Shown in pieces: positions 2 through 13,354 of a DNA stretch of 41,310 nucleotides; the first letter of the stretch is position 1; each line of letters starts with the position of its first letter. The stretch is taken from contig JAJFFJ010000016.1 in NCBI GenBank assembly GCA_021776685.1, positions 1 to 41,310 on the forward strand. Direction: 5' to 3'. The notes beneath the pieces were generated by a model. It worked only from the letters and a program-made list of their open reading frames with translations, searched no databases and had not been told where the DNA came from. Both the position numbers and the translations under genes were made by a program. This stretch comes from Alphaproteobacteria bacterium. GTDB lineage: Bacteria > Pseudomonadota > Alphaproteobacteria > Bin65.

Positions 2-4864
<4,863 letters not shown>

Positions 4865-4939: not shown

Positions 4940-5059
4940 CAACATTACCCGGCCAGAAACCTATGAAGGCGTCGCACTGTCAGGATTATGAGTGGTGGCC
5001 GCTTAAGAAAATCATAGTAAATCATCGGTTAAGCTGACGGCGGTCTGATTGGGTTCCCT

Positions 5060-7000
5060 ATGGCTTTGCTGGCAACACAAACATCGAACTCTGTCGAGGC
5101 TGCGCTGGAATGGGCGCGGTCCGAGTTCGGTTTTGTGGAAAGCAAGGCCATCACCAATCACCCCTGGGCCAAAACGATCCGCCTCGATGCAGATGGCGGA
5201 GCCGCCTACCTCAAGATTTTGCCGCTCGATCCGGCGCGACGCGTGCGGTTGCTGAGCCGGCTGGCCGAATGCTTCCCCGATCATACGCCCCGGCTGCTGG
5301 CGGCCGATGAGGCCTCAGGGTTTTTGCTTTACTGCGACCATGAAGGCGCGAGCCTGGACTCTAATCCTGATCACGATACCCGACTCCAGCTGCTGGCCAT
5401 ATATGCTGAACTACAGCGCGGTGCAGCGGAGTCGCCTGCGCTTTTGACAGCGCTACCGGTTCAAAATGCTGGCGAGCAGATCGACCGCCTGCTTGCATTC
5501 CTCTCTGGCGATGGATTGCCTGACGGGCATGTCGGTGCCCAGGCGTATTTGGGAGCAGGATCAGCCGCCCGGTATTTGGGTGTTTTCAGTGCCGTCGAGG
5601 ATGTGTTTCGCGCGTTCCTTGCCGACGCCGACAAACTGACCCCGACCGTCAATCATTGCGATCTCAGGCCGGCCAATGTGGCCCGCCGTCCAGACGGGAG
5701 TTTGGTGATTTTCGATTGGGATGATGCTGTTTCCGGTCCACCCGGTCTCTCTCTCCATAACTTTTTCCGCGGGTGTGTTCGACCCTGGCAGGTTTTGACC
5801 GGCGAGGTGAATGAGCAGGATGAGACCGCCAAGCGCGACCGTGAACTGCTGGAGGCATATTGTCAGACTCTCAGCCAATCTGAGGGCTGGGGCTACGCTT
5901 CACTGACAAAGGTCCTGCCGTCGGCGATTTGCGCGGGAGTGATCAAATTCATTGTCAGTTTTGGCGAGTTCCCAACGGAAAGCGATCGTCTGCGGAAGAC
6001 GATAGGCAGAAATATTCGCCGCCGTCTGAGCAGTCTTATGGATTTGTCAGCACTCCTGGTGCACGACAAGCCCAAACAAAAGGAAGCACTTGCACAGGCG
6101 TTTATCGGGGCCGGTCGAAAGGAGCGGGCGCAGGCGCTCACCGGTCTAGGTGGGCCAATCAAAGTTAAGGTTCGTTCAGGTGGTGTTATCACATCACACG
6201 ACAGCGGCGAGTTCCCAGCTATTGCGATTTCCAGCCACGAGCACAAGAACGGCAATCTGGATCGCGAAAACCATGACAAGGCCGTCACCTTGTTCGACAG
6301 CCATGGCGCCCTCCTCATTAAGGACGCATTGCCCATGGCCGCCGTCGAGCGGTGCCGGGACGCATTTTTTGAGCGGTACGACAAATACCTGTCCGACGTG
6401 AAACACGACGACGCCCTTAGGGTCGGCAACAAACGGTTCATGATTACCGTTGAGCTTTCGCCGCCATTCAGCGATTCCGAAATCCTTACGTCCCCGATGT
6501 TCATGCCAATTGTGCAAGAGTTTCTGGGCGAGGACCTGATCCTGGGTAGTCTCACCTGCGTCGCGTCATTACCTGGGTCCAAGACCCAAAGTTTGCATAA
6601 GGACCACAAGGCGCTGTTCCGTGAGAAACCTGAGCTACAATTGCCCAGCTTCGCTATGTCGGTCGTCGTGCCGTTAATTGGGCTCGATGCGGCTACGGGG
6701 GGAACGCGGGTGCTTCGGGGCAGCCATCGAGTGAGCTCGGATGACGCAAAATCGATGCCTGGCCAGACCGCCGATATGCCGCTTGGTTCTTGTTATCTTA
6801 TGGATTATCGCCTTTCTCACCACGGACTGGCTAACCGTTCGGACAAAGTGCGGCCGATTCTCTGTATGATCTTTCACCGCCCTTGGTTTCGCGATTATAT
6901 CAATTTTGGCAAGCAGAATCCCATGGTCATACCGCCTGGTGCCAAAGCCGGTCTGTCAAAGGAAATCAAGCGCATGACTGCCTGGGCATCCCAGGAATAG
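5060..7000 (+). CDS. APH-family kinase fused to phytanoyl-CoA dioxygenase (PhyH) domain
   Basis: 646 residues with two enzyme domains. The N-terminal half (about 20-320) is an aminoglycoside/choline-kinase-like phosphotransferase: a candidate ATP lysine K52 (YLKIL), catalytic loop HCDLRPANV with H199, D201 and N206, and metal-binding IFDWDD at D219. The C-terminal part (about 405-625) is a PhyH-type Fe(II)/2-oxoglutarate oxygenase: H513-K-D515, distal His in LSHHGLANR (587/588) and 2OG-binding Arg R598. Both active sites look intact. The substrate is unknown; APH enzymes phosphorylate small-molecule or side-chain hydroxyls and PhyH enzymes hydroxylate, so sequential hydroxylation and phosphorylation of one target is a reasonable inference. 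It follows the exoprotein gene with its own ATG (weak SD) after a terminator. The fusion is continuous in one frame, so it is not an assembly join of two ORFs. Confidence 0.85.
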   Translation: MALLATQTSNSVEAALEWARSEFGFVESKAITNHPWAKTIRLDADGGAAYLKILPLDPARRVRLLSRLAECFPDHTPRLLAADEASGFLLYCDHEGASLDSNPDHDTRLQLLAIYAELQRGAAESPALLTALPVQNAGEQIDRLLAFLSGDGLPDGHVGAQAYLGAGSAARYLGVFSAVEDVFRAFLADADKLTPTVNHCDLRPANVARRPDGSLVIFDWDDAVSGPPGLSLHNFFRGCVRPWQVLTGEVNEQDETAKRDRELLEAYCQTLSQSEGWGYASLTKVLPSAICAGVIKFIVSFGEFPTESDRLRKTIGRNIRRRLSSLMDLSALLVHDKPKQKEALAQAFIGAGRKERAQALTGLGGPIKVKVRSGGVITSHDSGEFPAIAISSHEHKNGNLDRENHDKAVTLFDSHGALLIKDALPMAAVERCRDAFFERYDKYLSDVKHDDALRVGNKRFMITVELSPPFSDSEILTSPMFMPIVQEFLGEDLILGSLTCVASLPGSKTQSLHKDHKALFREKPELQLPSFAMSVVVPLIGLDAATGGTRVLRGSHRVSSDDAKSMPGQTADMPLGSCYLMDYRLSHHGLANRSDKVRPILCMIFHRPWFRDYINFGKQNPMVIPPGAKAGLSKEIKRMTAWASQE

Positions 7001-7140: not shown

Positions 7141-8169
7141 TTACTCGGCGGCGACTGCGTCAGCGTCCTGCTTCTGGATAAAGGCCAGAACATCAAGGAA
7201 CCATTCACTAAGCGGCGCGGTTGCGGCATTGGCCAGGGCCCAGCGGGCGCCACGCTTGCACAGCCGCTCGACGCAGATGGCGGCGACGCCGATTTTGTCG
7301 CCCTTCATGCAATAGTCGAAGTCCCACCACTCGCCGTCGCGCAGACGCCGATAGACGATCAGCTCTAGCCTGACGGTCATGTGGAACACGCCAAAGGCGA
7401 GCAGGTAGAGGAGCGTCTCTTCCGTGCTGTCAAAGCCGCGTGAAAATCGGCCGATATGATCTGTGAGCACCCGCGCTTCGATCTCGGGTTCGTCCGGCAT
7501 GAACTCGTCGCCGAGCAGCCAGGCCAGATCATCCGGCGGGTTCCGGCGGCCGCAATGCTCCCAGTCGAACCAGGCGCAGGCGCCATCATCACGAATCGCT
7601 GCGTTGCCGGGCCGGGAATCCCATTTCACCACGGATGCCGTGCGAACCCTCAGAAAGGGCACCAGTGTGTCCAAATCCAGTTTGGGCGCGTCGACGCCGA
7701 TTTTCTTGCCGATCTGCCGCGGGTTGCCAATGAGCTTTTCAATCCAGTCCCGTTTGAAGCCCAGCAGGTGGGCGGATTTCAGCGGCTCTGCCGCACGGGA
7801 GGCGTCGTGGCAATTTGCGAGCCCCACGACCGCGGCCTCCATGGCGTGTTCCCGTTCGTCGCGGTCATCACCATTGAGCACAAAAGACAGACGGCGGTTC
7901 CCAAGATCTTCCTGGACCATCCACAGGCCGTCAAAAGCGAATATCTCTGGCACCGGCCCGCCATTCTCGTGCAGAGCGCGCAGGATGCGGGCTTCGCGCC
8001 GTGCCTTGTCGCTGTCCGGGCGCCGCGTCAGGATGCGGGTCTGATCGCCGAAATGCAGGCGCACGGATTCGCGGCTCCTGCCCCCGGGGTAGGTGACGTT
8101 ATCCGGGCGTTCGCCGATCAGTTTTTCACAGACGTCCAGCGCCTGCAGTTTTTCGATGCCTTTTCCCAT
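7141..8169 (-). CDS. APH-like phosphotransferase with altered catalytic loop
   Basis: 342 residues resembling the aminoglycoside phosphotransferase/choline kinase superfamily. The expected HGDxxxxN catalytic loop reads KWDSRPGN (K182, D184, N189), and the metal-binding Asp is present in WFDWEHCG (D202). The general base Asp and metal ligands are therefore kept while the usual His is Lys. The N-lobe is recognisable (TRILTRRPDSDKARREA). It converges on the kinase-dioxygenase gene and is divergent from the TIGR03032-like gene. Substrate unknown; it could be an active kinase with an unusual loop or a partly degenerate one. ATG at 8169 is preferred because it begins just before the first predicted helix. 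Confidence 0.8.
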   Translation of the reverse strand: MGKGIEKLQALDVCEKLIGERPDNVTYPGGRSRESVRLHFGDQTRILTRRPDSDKARREARILRALHENGGPVPEIFAFDGLWMVQEDLGNRRLSFVLNGDDRDEREHAMEAAVVGLANCHDASRAAEPLKSAHLLGFKRDWIEKLIGNPRQIGKKIGVDAPKLDLDTLVPFLRVRTASVVKWDSRPGNAAIRDDGACAWFDWEHCGRRNPPDDLAWLLGDEFMPDEPEIEARVLTDHIGRFSRGFDSTEETLLYLLAFGVFHMTVRLELIVYRRLRDGEWWDFDYCMKGDKIGVAAICVERLCKRGARWALANAATAPLSEWFLDVLAFIQKQDADAVAAE

Positions 8170-8316: not shown

Positions 8317-9372
8317 ATGAGCACAAATTCAGATAACGGCCTGGATATCTCCACGTCCCGCGGGTTCGCCCGCTGGCTTGCCGATACTGGGGTCAGTATC
8401 GCCGTTTCAACGGATACGGCGGGCAAGTTGCTGCTTGTCGGCCTCGATGGCCATGGCGAGGTGTCGGTTTTCGAGCGTGCATTTGACCGCACCGGCGGCC
8501 TGTGCTTCGACCAGGGCGGCCTGCTGATCGCAACCCGCTATCAGATCTGGCGTCTGGAAAATGTCCTGACAGACGGGCCGACCGCGGACGGATATGACGC
8601 CCTGTATGTGCCCCAGGCGGGCTGGGTCACCGGCGCAGTACAGGCCCACGACATTGCGGCGACGCCCGATGGCAACATCCTGTTCGCCAACACCATGTTC
8701 AGCTGCGTCGCGGCCGCCAGCGCCCAATACAGCTTTGCGCCCGTTTGGCGTCCGCCCTTTATCGATGCATTGGTGGCGGAGCAGCGCTGCTATTTGAACG
8801 GTCTGGCCGTGAGCGGCGACCAACCCGTATTCGTGACCATGGCGGCGGAGACCGAGGCGCGGCGGGGCTGGAAACAGTCCATCATCGGCGGCGGCGCGGT
8901 CTATGACGTGGAGACCAGCATTCCAGTGATCGGCGGGCTGACCCTGCCGGCCTCGCCCCGTCTATATAGCGACCGGTTGTGGATGCTGGAGTCCGGCAGC
9001 GGCTATTTCGGCGTCGTCGATCCGGCGAACGGTCGCTTCGAGAAAGCGATTTTGTGCCCCGGTTTCGTGCGGGGATTGGCCTTCCATGAAAACTTTGCGG
9101 TAACATCGACGTCCCGCCAGTTCGCTGGCCAGGACATCAGCGGCATGCCAGTGGAAGAGAATCTGCAGAGGTCCAGGGCCGAGCCCCGCTGCGCCCTGGT
9201 CGTGCTGGACCTGCAACAGGGTGTGCTGGCCCACTGGATGCGCATCGAAGGCCAGGTGTCCGAGATCCAGGATGTGGCGATTCTGCCGGGGGTGCGCCGG
9301 CCAGCGGCTATCGGCCTGGATGGCGAAGAAATCCAGCGCATTCTGAGCATTGCTCCGGAGCAGCCGCGGTAG
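8317..9372 (+). CDS. TIGR03032/DUF4915-like protein
   Basis: 351 residues, probably a beta-propeller-like soluble protein with no signal peptide. The order of conserved blocks fits the TIGR03032 family of uncharacterised proteins: SRGFARWLADTGVSIAVST near the N-terminus, TRYQIWRLEN, LYVPQAGWVTGAVQAHDIA, ANTMFSCVA, PVWRPPFIDAL, CYLNGLAV and WMLESGSGYFGVVD. I recall the family from memory and could not search it. Members are of unknown function. Position next to two APH-type kinases and a large RTX exoprotein suggests a shared role, but nothing in the sequence defines an activity. The 147-bp gap to the divergent kinase gene presumably holds both promoters. Confidence 0.75.
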   Translation: MSTNSDNGLDISTSRGFARWLADTGVSIAVSTDTAGKLLLVGLDGHGEVSVFERAFDRTGGLCFDQGGLLIATRYQIWRLENVLTDGPTADGYDALYVPQAGWVTGAVQAHDIAATPDGNILFANTMFSCVAAASAQYSFAPVWRPPFIDALVAEQRCYLNGLAVSGDQPVFVTMAAETEARRGWKQSIIGGGAVYDVETSIPVIGGLTLPASPRLYSDRLWMLESGSGYFGVVDPANGRFEKAILCPGFVRGLAFHENFAVTSTSRQFAGQDISGMPVEENLQRSRAEPRCALVVLDLQQGVLAHWMRIEGQVSEIQDVAILPGVRRPAAIGLDGEEIQRILSIAPEQPR

Positions 9373-12682: not shown

Positions 12683-13354
12683 TCAGGTCTGGGGGTCATC
12701 CGGCGGGGCGCTGCCCTCTTCAGCCTCCGGCTGGATCGTGTGGCGCACGATCAACGGCATCATGGCCAGGGCGAAGACGATGGTCAGGGGCATCACACCC
12801 CAGACCTTGTAGTAGACCCAGGTGGACTCGCTTTGGGTCCGCCAGACTGCCTCGTTGACGATGCCCAGAAGAATAAAAAACGCGCCCCAACGCAGGGAAA
12901 GCTTCCGCCAGCCTTCATCGTCCAGATTAAACACCGGCCCGAACAGGGGTTTGAGCAACCCCTTGCCGAACAGCAGTCCGCCAAACAAAGCGGAGGCAAA
13001 CAGGCCGTTGACGATGGTCGGTTTCATTTTGATGAATTGGTCGTCCTGCAGGATCAGCGTGAGGCCGCCAAAGACCAGCACCATCACCATGGTCACCAGG
13101 GGCATCAGGGGGACGCGCTTTTCCCGGGTATAGGTGATCGCCACCGTAACGGGGACCGCCACCATCAGTACTGCAGTGGCGGCCATCAGACCCTTCAGGG
13201 GAAAGTCCTTGGGGACGAGGTCGTCCCAAAACAGGTAGGTGCCGAAAAAAAGGACCAACGGCCCAATCTCCAGGAAGAATTTGAACACCTGGTCCTGGCT
13301 TGGCGCCACGGTCTGCGGGGAGGCTTGCTGCGCTGCTGGCCGGTCGTCCGTCAT
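12683..13354 (-). CDS. yciB: YciB/septation protein A (IspZ) family membrane protein
   Basis: 223 residues with about five to six hydrophobic segments. Family blocks include FKFFLEIGPLVLFFGTYL, AVPVTVAITYTREKRVPLMP, GGLTLILQDDQFIKMKPTIVN and VNEAVWRTQSESTWVYYKVWGVMPLT. An inner-membrane protein linked to cell-envelope maintenance and septation in family studies. Its ATG overlaps the ftsY stop by 4 nt (ATGA), so it is the last gene of the dapF-mtaB-ftsY series. The N-terminal about 20 residues (TDDRPAAQQASPQ) are a polar leader; a Glu/Pro/Asp-rich C-terminus follows the last membrane segment. Confidence 0.93.
   Translation of the reverse strand: MTDDRPAAQQASPQTVAPSQDQVFKFFLEIGPLVLFFGTYLFWDDLVPKDFPLKGLMAATAVLMVAVPVTVAITYTREKRVPLMPLVTMVMVLVFGGLTLILQDDQFIKMKPTIVNGLFASALFGGLLFGKGLLKPLFGPVFNLDDEGWRKLSLRWGAFFILLGIVNEAVWRTQSESTWVYYKVWGVMPLTIVFALAMMPLIVRHTIQPEAEEGSAPPDDPQT

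Follow-up and report, generated by a model that had tools for sequence, protein, structure and literature searches.

The locus and the fusion protein

The stretch of DNA analysed here, referred to as the window, comprises positions 1-41,310 of contig JAJFFJ010000016.1, forward strand (Alphaproteobacteria bacterium, assembly GCA_021776685.1), and includes a gene at 5060-7000 which joins an APH-type kinase and a PhyH-type Fe(II)/2-oxoglutarate oxygenase in one protein, directly downstream of the gene of a secreted Gly-Lys repeat protein. The fusion probably modifies this neighbouring protein in some way, and the reading tentatively preferred is that repeat residues are hydroxylated and then phosphorylated. 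The features of the fusion are the following:

5060..7000, + strand: APH-PhyH fusion protein, 646 amino acids (open reading frame; Pfam APH and PhyH; full-length relatives in two genomes)
5060..6064, + strand: APH-type kinase part, about residues 1-335 (Pfam; five residues invariant in four sequences)
5213-5215, 5654-5656, 5660-5662, 5675-5677 and 5714-5716, + strand: codons of the kinase residues K52, H199, D201, N206 and D219, respectively
6065..6214, + strand: variable linker, about residues 336-385 (gap-rich alignment; structure model partly of low confidence)
6215..6997, + strand: PhyH-type Fe(II)/2-oxoglutarate oxygenase part (Pfam; residues invariant in ten sequences; model matches KanJ)
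6596-6598, 6602-6604, 6818-6820 and 6851-6853, + strand: codons of the oxygenase residues H513, D515, H587 and R598, respectively

The reading frame begins with ATG, contains no internal stop and is preceded by an in-frame TAA at 5030. In Pfam, APH (PF01636) covers residues 60-229 (E 5.3e-8, 33.4 bits, cut-off 23.2) and PhyH (PF05721) residues 412-599 (E 5e-13, 50.3 bits, gathering cut-off 22), while NCBIfam assigned no family to the protein. The original prediction, made from the letters of the DNA, had claimed one continuous APH-PhyH protein, and the uninterrupted frame with both domains above their cut-offs bears this out.

The active-site residues named in that prediction (H199, D201, N206, D219, H513, D515, H587 or H588, and R598) all lie at the positions given. 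The HxD...H iron triad and the distal Arg (H513, D515, H587, R598) are present in all ten PhyH sequences aligned, and since position 588 varies (H, Q, R, G or S) while H587 is invariant, the alignment picks H587 as the iron ligand. On the kinase side, K52, the invariant candidate for the ATP-site lysine, the HxDxxxxN motif and the metal Asp (H199, D201, N206, D219) are kept in four of four sequences, including a separate kinase of genome G288 described below. Judged by motifs, both active sites are predicted to be intact.

For the fusion as a whole, structure prediction gave a model of medium confidence (mean pLDDT 68), with low values in the catalytic loops. Its PhyH half superimposes on KanJ, the kanamycin B dioxygenase, with Z 23.5 and a root-mean-square deviation of 2.9 over 247 residues; related oxygenases also fit, and KanJ is the closest solved relative of this half by sequence search as well. 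KanJ differs from it in being a stand-alone enzyme with a small-molecule (aminoglycoside) substrate. The fold-match list covers the PhyH half only and, as the whole model is of medium confidence, the kinase half is assigned by Pfam and by its motifs. A role in aminoglycoside resistance is not favoured, because the APH half has weak profile similarity to the solved resistance kinases.

Relatives of the fusion and a split form

A scan of the genomes of 84,980 species with short peptide patterns, which detects relatives sharing exact short peptides, yielded two full-length fusions, one in the Rhizobiaceae metagenome-assembled genome DT_97 (locus L021; 43% identity end to end with the window protein) and one in Ahrensia sp. 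R2A130 (locus L022; 35%). Against the APH profile these relatives reached 39.0 and 30.9 bits. K52, H199, D201, N206, D219, H513, D515, H587 and R598 are invariant across the three proteins. Since the whole fusion recurs in two other genomes, its origin by chance or by faulty assembly is excluded, and sequence comparison indicates that the APH-PhyH fusion is real and old. Profile searches of 385 class, 298 family, 201 relative and 299 phylum genomes (about 1,180 entries, some repeated) gave no fusion beyond these three, a count which is a lower bound, as the first scan needed exact short peptides. Phage records and viral contigs contained no match to the fusion, and plasmid records matched the PhyH half only and never the full fusion. 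The original prediction did not know the architecture as a characterised one, in agreement with the open-access literature, where no paper describing an APH-PhyH fusion was found.

The search for the architecture also returned a split pair. In G288, an alphaproteobacterium, a PhyH gene (39-45% identity) is directly followed by an APH gene (about 31%), so that the order of the domains is swapped with respect to the fusion, and a PqqD domain forms the C-terminus of the split kinase. As domains of the PqqD type bind peptides, this one speaks for a substrate that is a peptide or protein; the two genes could be a peptide-modifying system with a different substrate. At the same locus (L040:9370-12012) a second, convergent PqqD gene adjoins the APH-PqqD gene, and the contig ends soon after. 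No APH homologue occurred in the fetched flanks of the close PhyH relatives in G384, G307, G305 and G382. On plasmids of Caballeronia, Azospirillum and Skermanella (L024, L025, L026), stand-alone PhyH genes lie beside sugar ABC transporter and LacI genes, neighbours which suggest a sugar-related substrate for this plasmid branch.

The Gly-Lys repeat protein beside the fusions

The gene directly upstream of the fusion, with 195 bases between its end and the start of the fusion, encodes the proposed substrate:

53..4864, + strand: secreted RTX-like protein, 1603 amino acids visible, truncated at the 5' end where the contig begins
2405..3094, + strand: Gly-Lys repeat segment, residues 785-1014 of this protein

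The protein is laid out as Calx-beta, VWA, Gly-Lys repeat and an RTX-like C-terminal part. The repeat segment, of 230 residues, is made of GTGKGTG and GSGKGSG units and holds 25 of the 35 lysines of the protein, 24 of them as GKG, together with 78 Ser/Thr and no Arg; the remainder of the 1603 residues is almost lysine-free, and such a concentration of lysine in 14% of the protein has a binomial P of about 3e-14.

A Gly-Lys repeat gene, either RTX-like or glycine-rich, is found in all three fusion loci, although the fusions were not selected for that trait. In the Rhizobiaceae genome the gene directly upstream of the fusion (L021:2-1384) belongs to a contig that begins within SGKGGSGSGSAKGG repeats, which are followed by RTX-like repeats, and another contig holds an apparently matching N-terminus, MAFYNYYGSNSFDWFDWDWKSDGSG...(GSGK)n, running off the contig end. 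In Ahrensia (L022) the fusion is followed by the methyltransferase, the second APH kinase and the repeat open reading frame, the last being the third gene downstream of the fusion; it begins with MLDNLYNQFDWYAFDGG at 12693, goes into GSGKGSGK repeats and runs off the contig, while another contig opens with 34 SGKG units, after which comes an acidic C-terminal part. Contig breaks inside repeats hide parts of each of the three loci, and we infer that the separate pieces join in both relatives. The architecture of the window protein, with Calx-beta and VWA, differs from that of the shorter proteins of the two relatives.

Lysine repeats of this kind are rare. With the repeat as query, 36 of the 385 class genomes gave matches, and among the 30 loci fetched and checked in six frames only one, that of the window itself, had lysine repeats, the rest being Gly/Ser/Thr-rich or frame artefacts; of the six weaker-match genomes without a fetched locus, G382 had no lysine-repeat open reading frame and the other five were not inspected. 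Among the 201 relatives of the Rhizobiaceae genome, the genomes with lysine-repeat proteins were the two fusion genomes, G690 and G691 (Fisher P 3e-4, the Rhizobiaceae genome itself, which fell below the repeat-search threshold, being counted from its own contigs). The N-termini of the G690 and G691 proteins resemble those of the Rhizobiaceae and Ahrensia ones.

As a separate observation, a molybdenum-hydroxylase (CoxM/S/L-like) operon, with orthologues 52-72% identical (L119:4650-10492, L120:6125-11375 and L127:9343-14670), has the lysine-repeat gene as its neighbour in G690 and G691, and in G382 its neighbour is a gene for a PKMT-type methyltransferase. In Ahrensia a more distant operon of this type (about 30%) is found close to where the repeat-protein contig ends (L068).

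The methyltransferase neighbour

The fusion gene of each relative is followed, with an overlap of 13 bases or a gap of 6, by a gene for a methyltransferase of 522-525 amino acids, in which a class I methyltransferase domain is combined with MethyTransf_Reg (PF10119; E 7e-16 and 2e-13). A search of the PDB gave Rickettsia PKMT2 and PKMT1 as its best solved relatives, with E down to 1e-29. In PKMT2 the residues D74 and H118 bind S-adenosylmethionine (PMC11784438); GVD and HGxYSWVS of the Ahrensia protein align with this Asp and His within a one-residue numbering offset, and both residues are also kept in the L021 protein. Enzymes of the PKMT family place methyl groups on many lysines of OmpB, and the family member KmtA does the same on the adhesin AtaA (PMC11784438). 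The likeness to Rickettsia PKMT1/2 and Acinetobacter KmtA thus consists of a homologous gene adjoining two of the three fusions and of multi-lysine modification of large surface proteins, with the difference that the homologue is a neighbour and not the fusion itself. Elsewhere, in Ruegeria sp. TM1040 (L132:2643-12146), a PKMT-type methyltransferase gene is flanked by an RTX gene on one side and by genes for type I secretion on the other, a placement which suggests that proteins secreted by the type I route are more generally lysine-methylated.

Proposed modification of the repeat

The fusion is tentatively proposed, at a level of belief a little short of even, to be a bifunctional protein-modifying enzyme, which would hydroxylate residues of the repeat, likeliest lysines, and then phosphorylate the new hydroxyl. 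The original prediction had the domains and motifs right and had already named a hydroxylate-then-phosphorylate enzyme, the reading favoured here, although it overlooked the Gly-Lys repeat protein of the same locus, which is the likely substrate and the clear one that the present proposal predicts. Modification of the lysine repeat is favoured because it is the shortest account using all the parts; the specific lysine chemistry is held to be somewhat less likely than not. In this scheme, whose substrate, modified residue (lysine), sequence of steps and biological role are what we infer, the PhyH half, with Fe(II), O2 and 2-oxoglutarate, would act on the unfolded Gly-Lys repeat before secretion, and the APH half, with ATP or GTP, would convert the hydroxylated residues into O-phospho-hydroxylysine. 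In the relatives these lysines are probably methylated as well, by the PKMT-type enzyme, and Ser/Thr residues of the repeat may be phosphorylated by the second APH-like kinase. The protein, secreted or exposed at the surface, would thus come to hold a dense zwitterionic stretch resembling silaffins and fit for adhesion, coacervation or the binding of minerals.

Several known systems resemble parts of such a scheme. Collagen LH3 is a case of one protein which hydroxylates lysine and decorates the product: LH3 (PLOD3) acts on Lys in Gly-rich repeats, with the transferase N-terminal, the hydroxylase C-terminal and the second enzyme decorating the hydroxyl. It differs in that its transferase is a glycosyltransferase, in place of the kinase of the fusion, whose hydroxylase is PhyH-type, bacterial and of predicted activity. 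The human hydroxylysine kinase AGPHD1 (HYKK) is an APH-family protein (PMC4013574 and reference 13 therein), so that the kinase fold can use the hydroxyl of hydroxylysine. The likeness to this 5-hydroxylysine kinase is one of family (no HYKK chain was among the solved structures matched by the APH profile), and the human enzyme acts on the free amino acid. In silaffins, trimethyl-lysine is hydroxylated and phosphorylated, and phosphoserine occurs too (PMC4557024). Silaffin-1A resembles the proposed product in having Lys in Ser/Gly-rich repeats, where methylation, hydroxylation and phosphorylation would share one side chain; nevertheless, it is a diatom cell-wall protein with no sequence relationship shown, and the modification proposed here is a predicted one.

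The widest form of the proposal, a bacterial silaffin-like system in which a lysyl hydroxylase/hydroxylysine kinase, aided in some species by a PKMT-type methyltransferase, yields (methylated) phospho-hydroxylysine in a secreted repeat protein, is possible but less likely than not. This modification is not known to us in bacteria, and for some of the diatom silaffin steps no enzymes are known to us as assigned. If the proposal is true, the fusion supplies candidate enzyme types for those steps, phospho-hydroxylysine, whose chemistry is familiar from diatom silaffins, could be produced within a repeat protein by a compact and expressible system, and the lysine modification of bacterial surface proteins would extend from methylation to hydroxylation and phosphorylation.

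Counter-evidence and alternatives

Several observations weigh against this scheme. G288 has the split PhyH/APH pair, yet the repeat protein was not found in that genome. Conversely, in G690 and G691 the repeat protein is present but neither the fusion (E 1e-15) nor the methyltransferase (E 1e-10) gave a match, so that a genome can possess this protein and no fusion. In the window genome, whose assembly is incomplete, there was no methyltransferase homologue at E 1e-10, and the second kinase gene of the window is convergent with the fusion, the two not forming one operon. Moreover, the PhyH enzymes known so far act mostly on small molecules, an aminoglycoside in the case of KanJ, the nearest solved one.

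In a different explanation, judged unlikely, a sugar, an amino acid or an aminocyclitol, including free hydroxylysine, is hydroxylated and phosphorylated and the proximity of the Gly-Lys gene is indirect. It would fit with KanJ as nearest solved PhyH, with the sugar ABC transporter genes adjoining three of the annotated stand-alone plasmid relatives examined, and with the APH membership of the human hydroxylysine kinase (PMC4013574 and reference 13 therein). Nevertheless, no small-molecule biosynthetic cluster was seen next to the fusions, a rare lysine-repeat gene is present in three of three loci, PKMT homologues adjoin two of them, and the split kinase carries a PqqD domain. The substrate may also be the same repeat protein with two independent modifications, the PhyH half hydroxylating Lys (or Asp/Asn of the RTX part) and the APH half directly phosphorylating Ser/Thr of GSGK/GTGK. 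Every repeat is indeed also Ser/Thr-rich (78 of 230 residues in the window), phosphoserine accompanies modified lysine in silaffins (PMC4557024) and APH and Ser/Thr kinases have a common fold; however, the fusion of a hydroxylase with a kinase is most sensible if the product of one feeds the other, and another kinase gene is already near two of the three fusion loci, so that this version too is given a low probability. As for a kinase regulated by its oxygenase domain through sensing of O2 or 2-oxoglutarate, the second option of the original prediction, any fusion would permit it, but it is considered very improbable, because both active sites are kept, with the complete oxygenase motif conserved, and because G288 has the two domains as separate proteins encoded in reversed order.

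Second kinase and DUF4915 gene

Downstream of the fusion, two further genes were found in the window:

7141..8169, - strand: second APH-like kinase, 342 amino acids (37% identical to the kinase of the Ahrensia cassette, L022:11469-12497)
8317..9372, + strand: DUF4915/TIGR03032 protein, 351 amino acids, divergent from the second kinase

It is uncertain whether the DUF4915/TIGR03032 protein belongs to the fusion system, and no paper on TIGR03032 was found in the open-access literature. The second APH-like kinase is near the fusion in two of the three loci (window and Ahrensia). Its predicted structure is poor (mean pLDDT 40) and was set aside. In this kinase family, KWD replaces HxD in the catalytic loop, while DxxxxN and the metal Asp are kept, and the Ahrensia copy scores below the Pfam APH cut-off.
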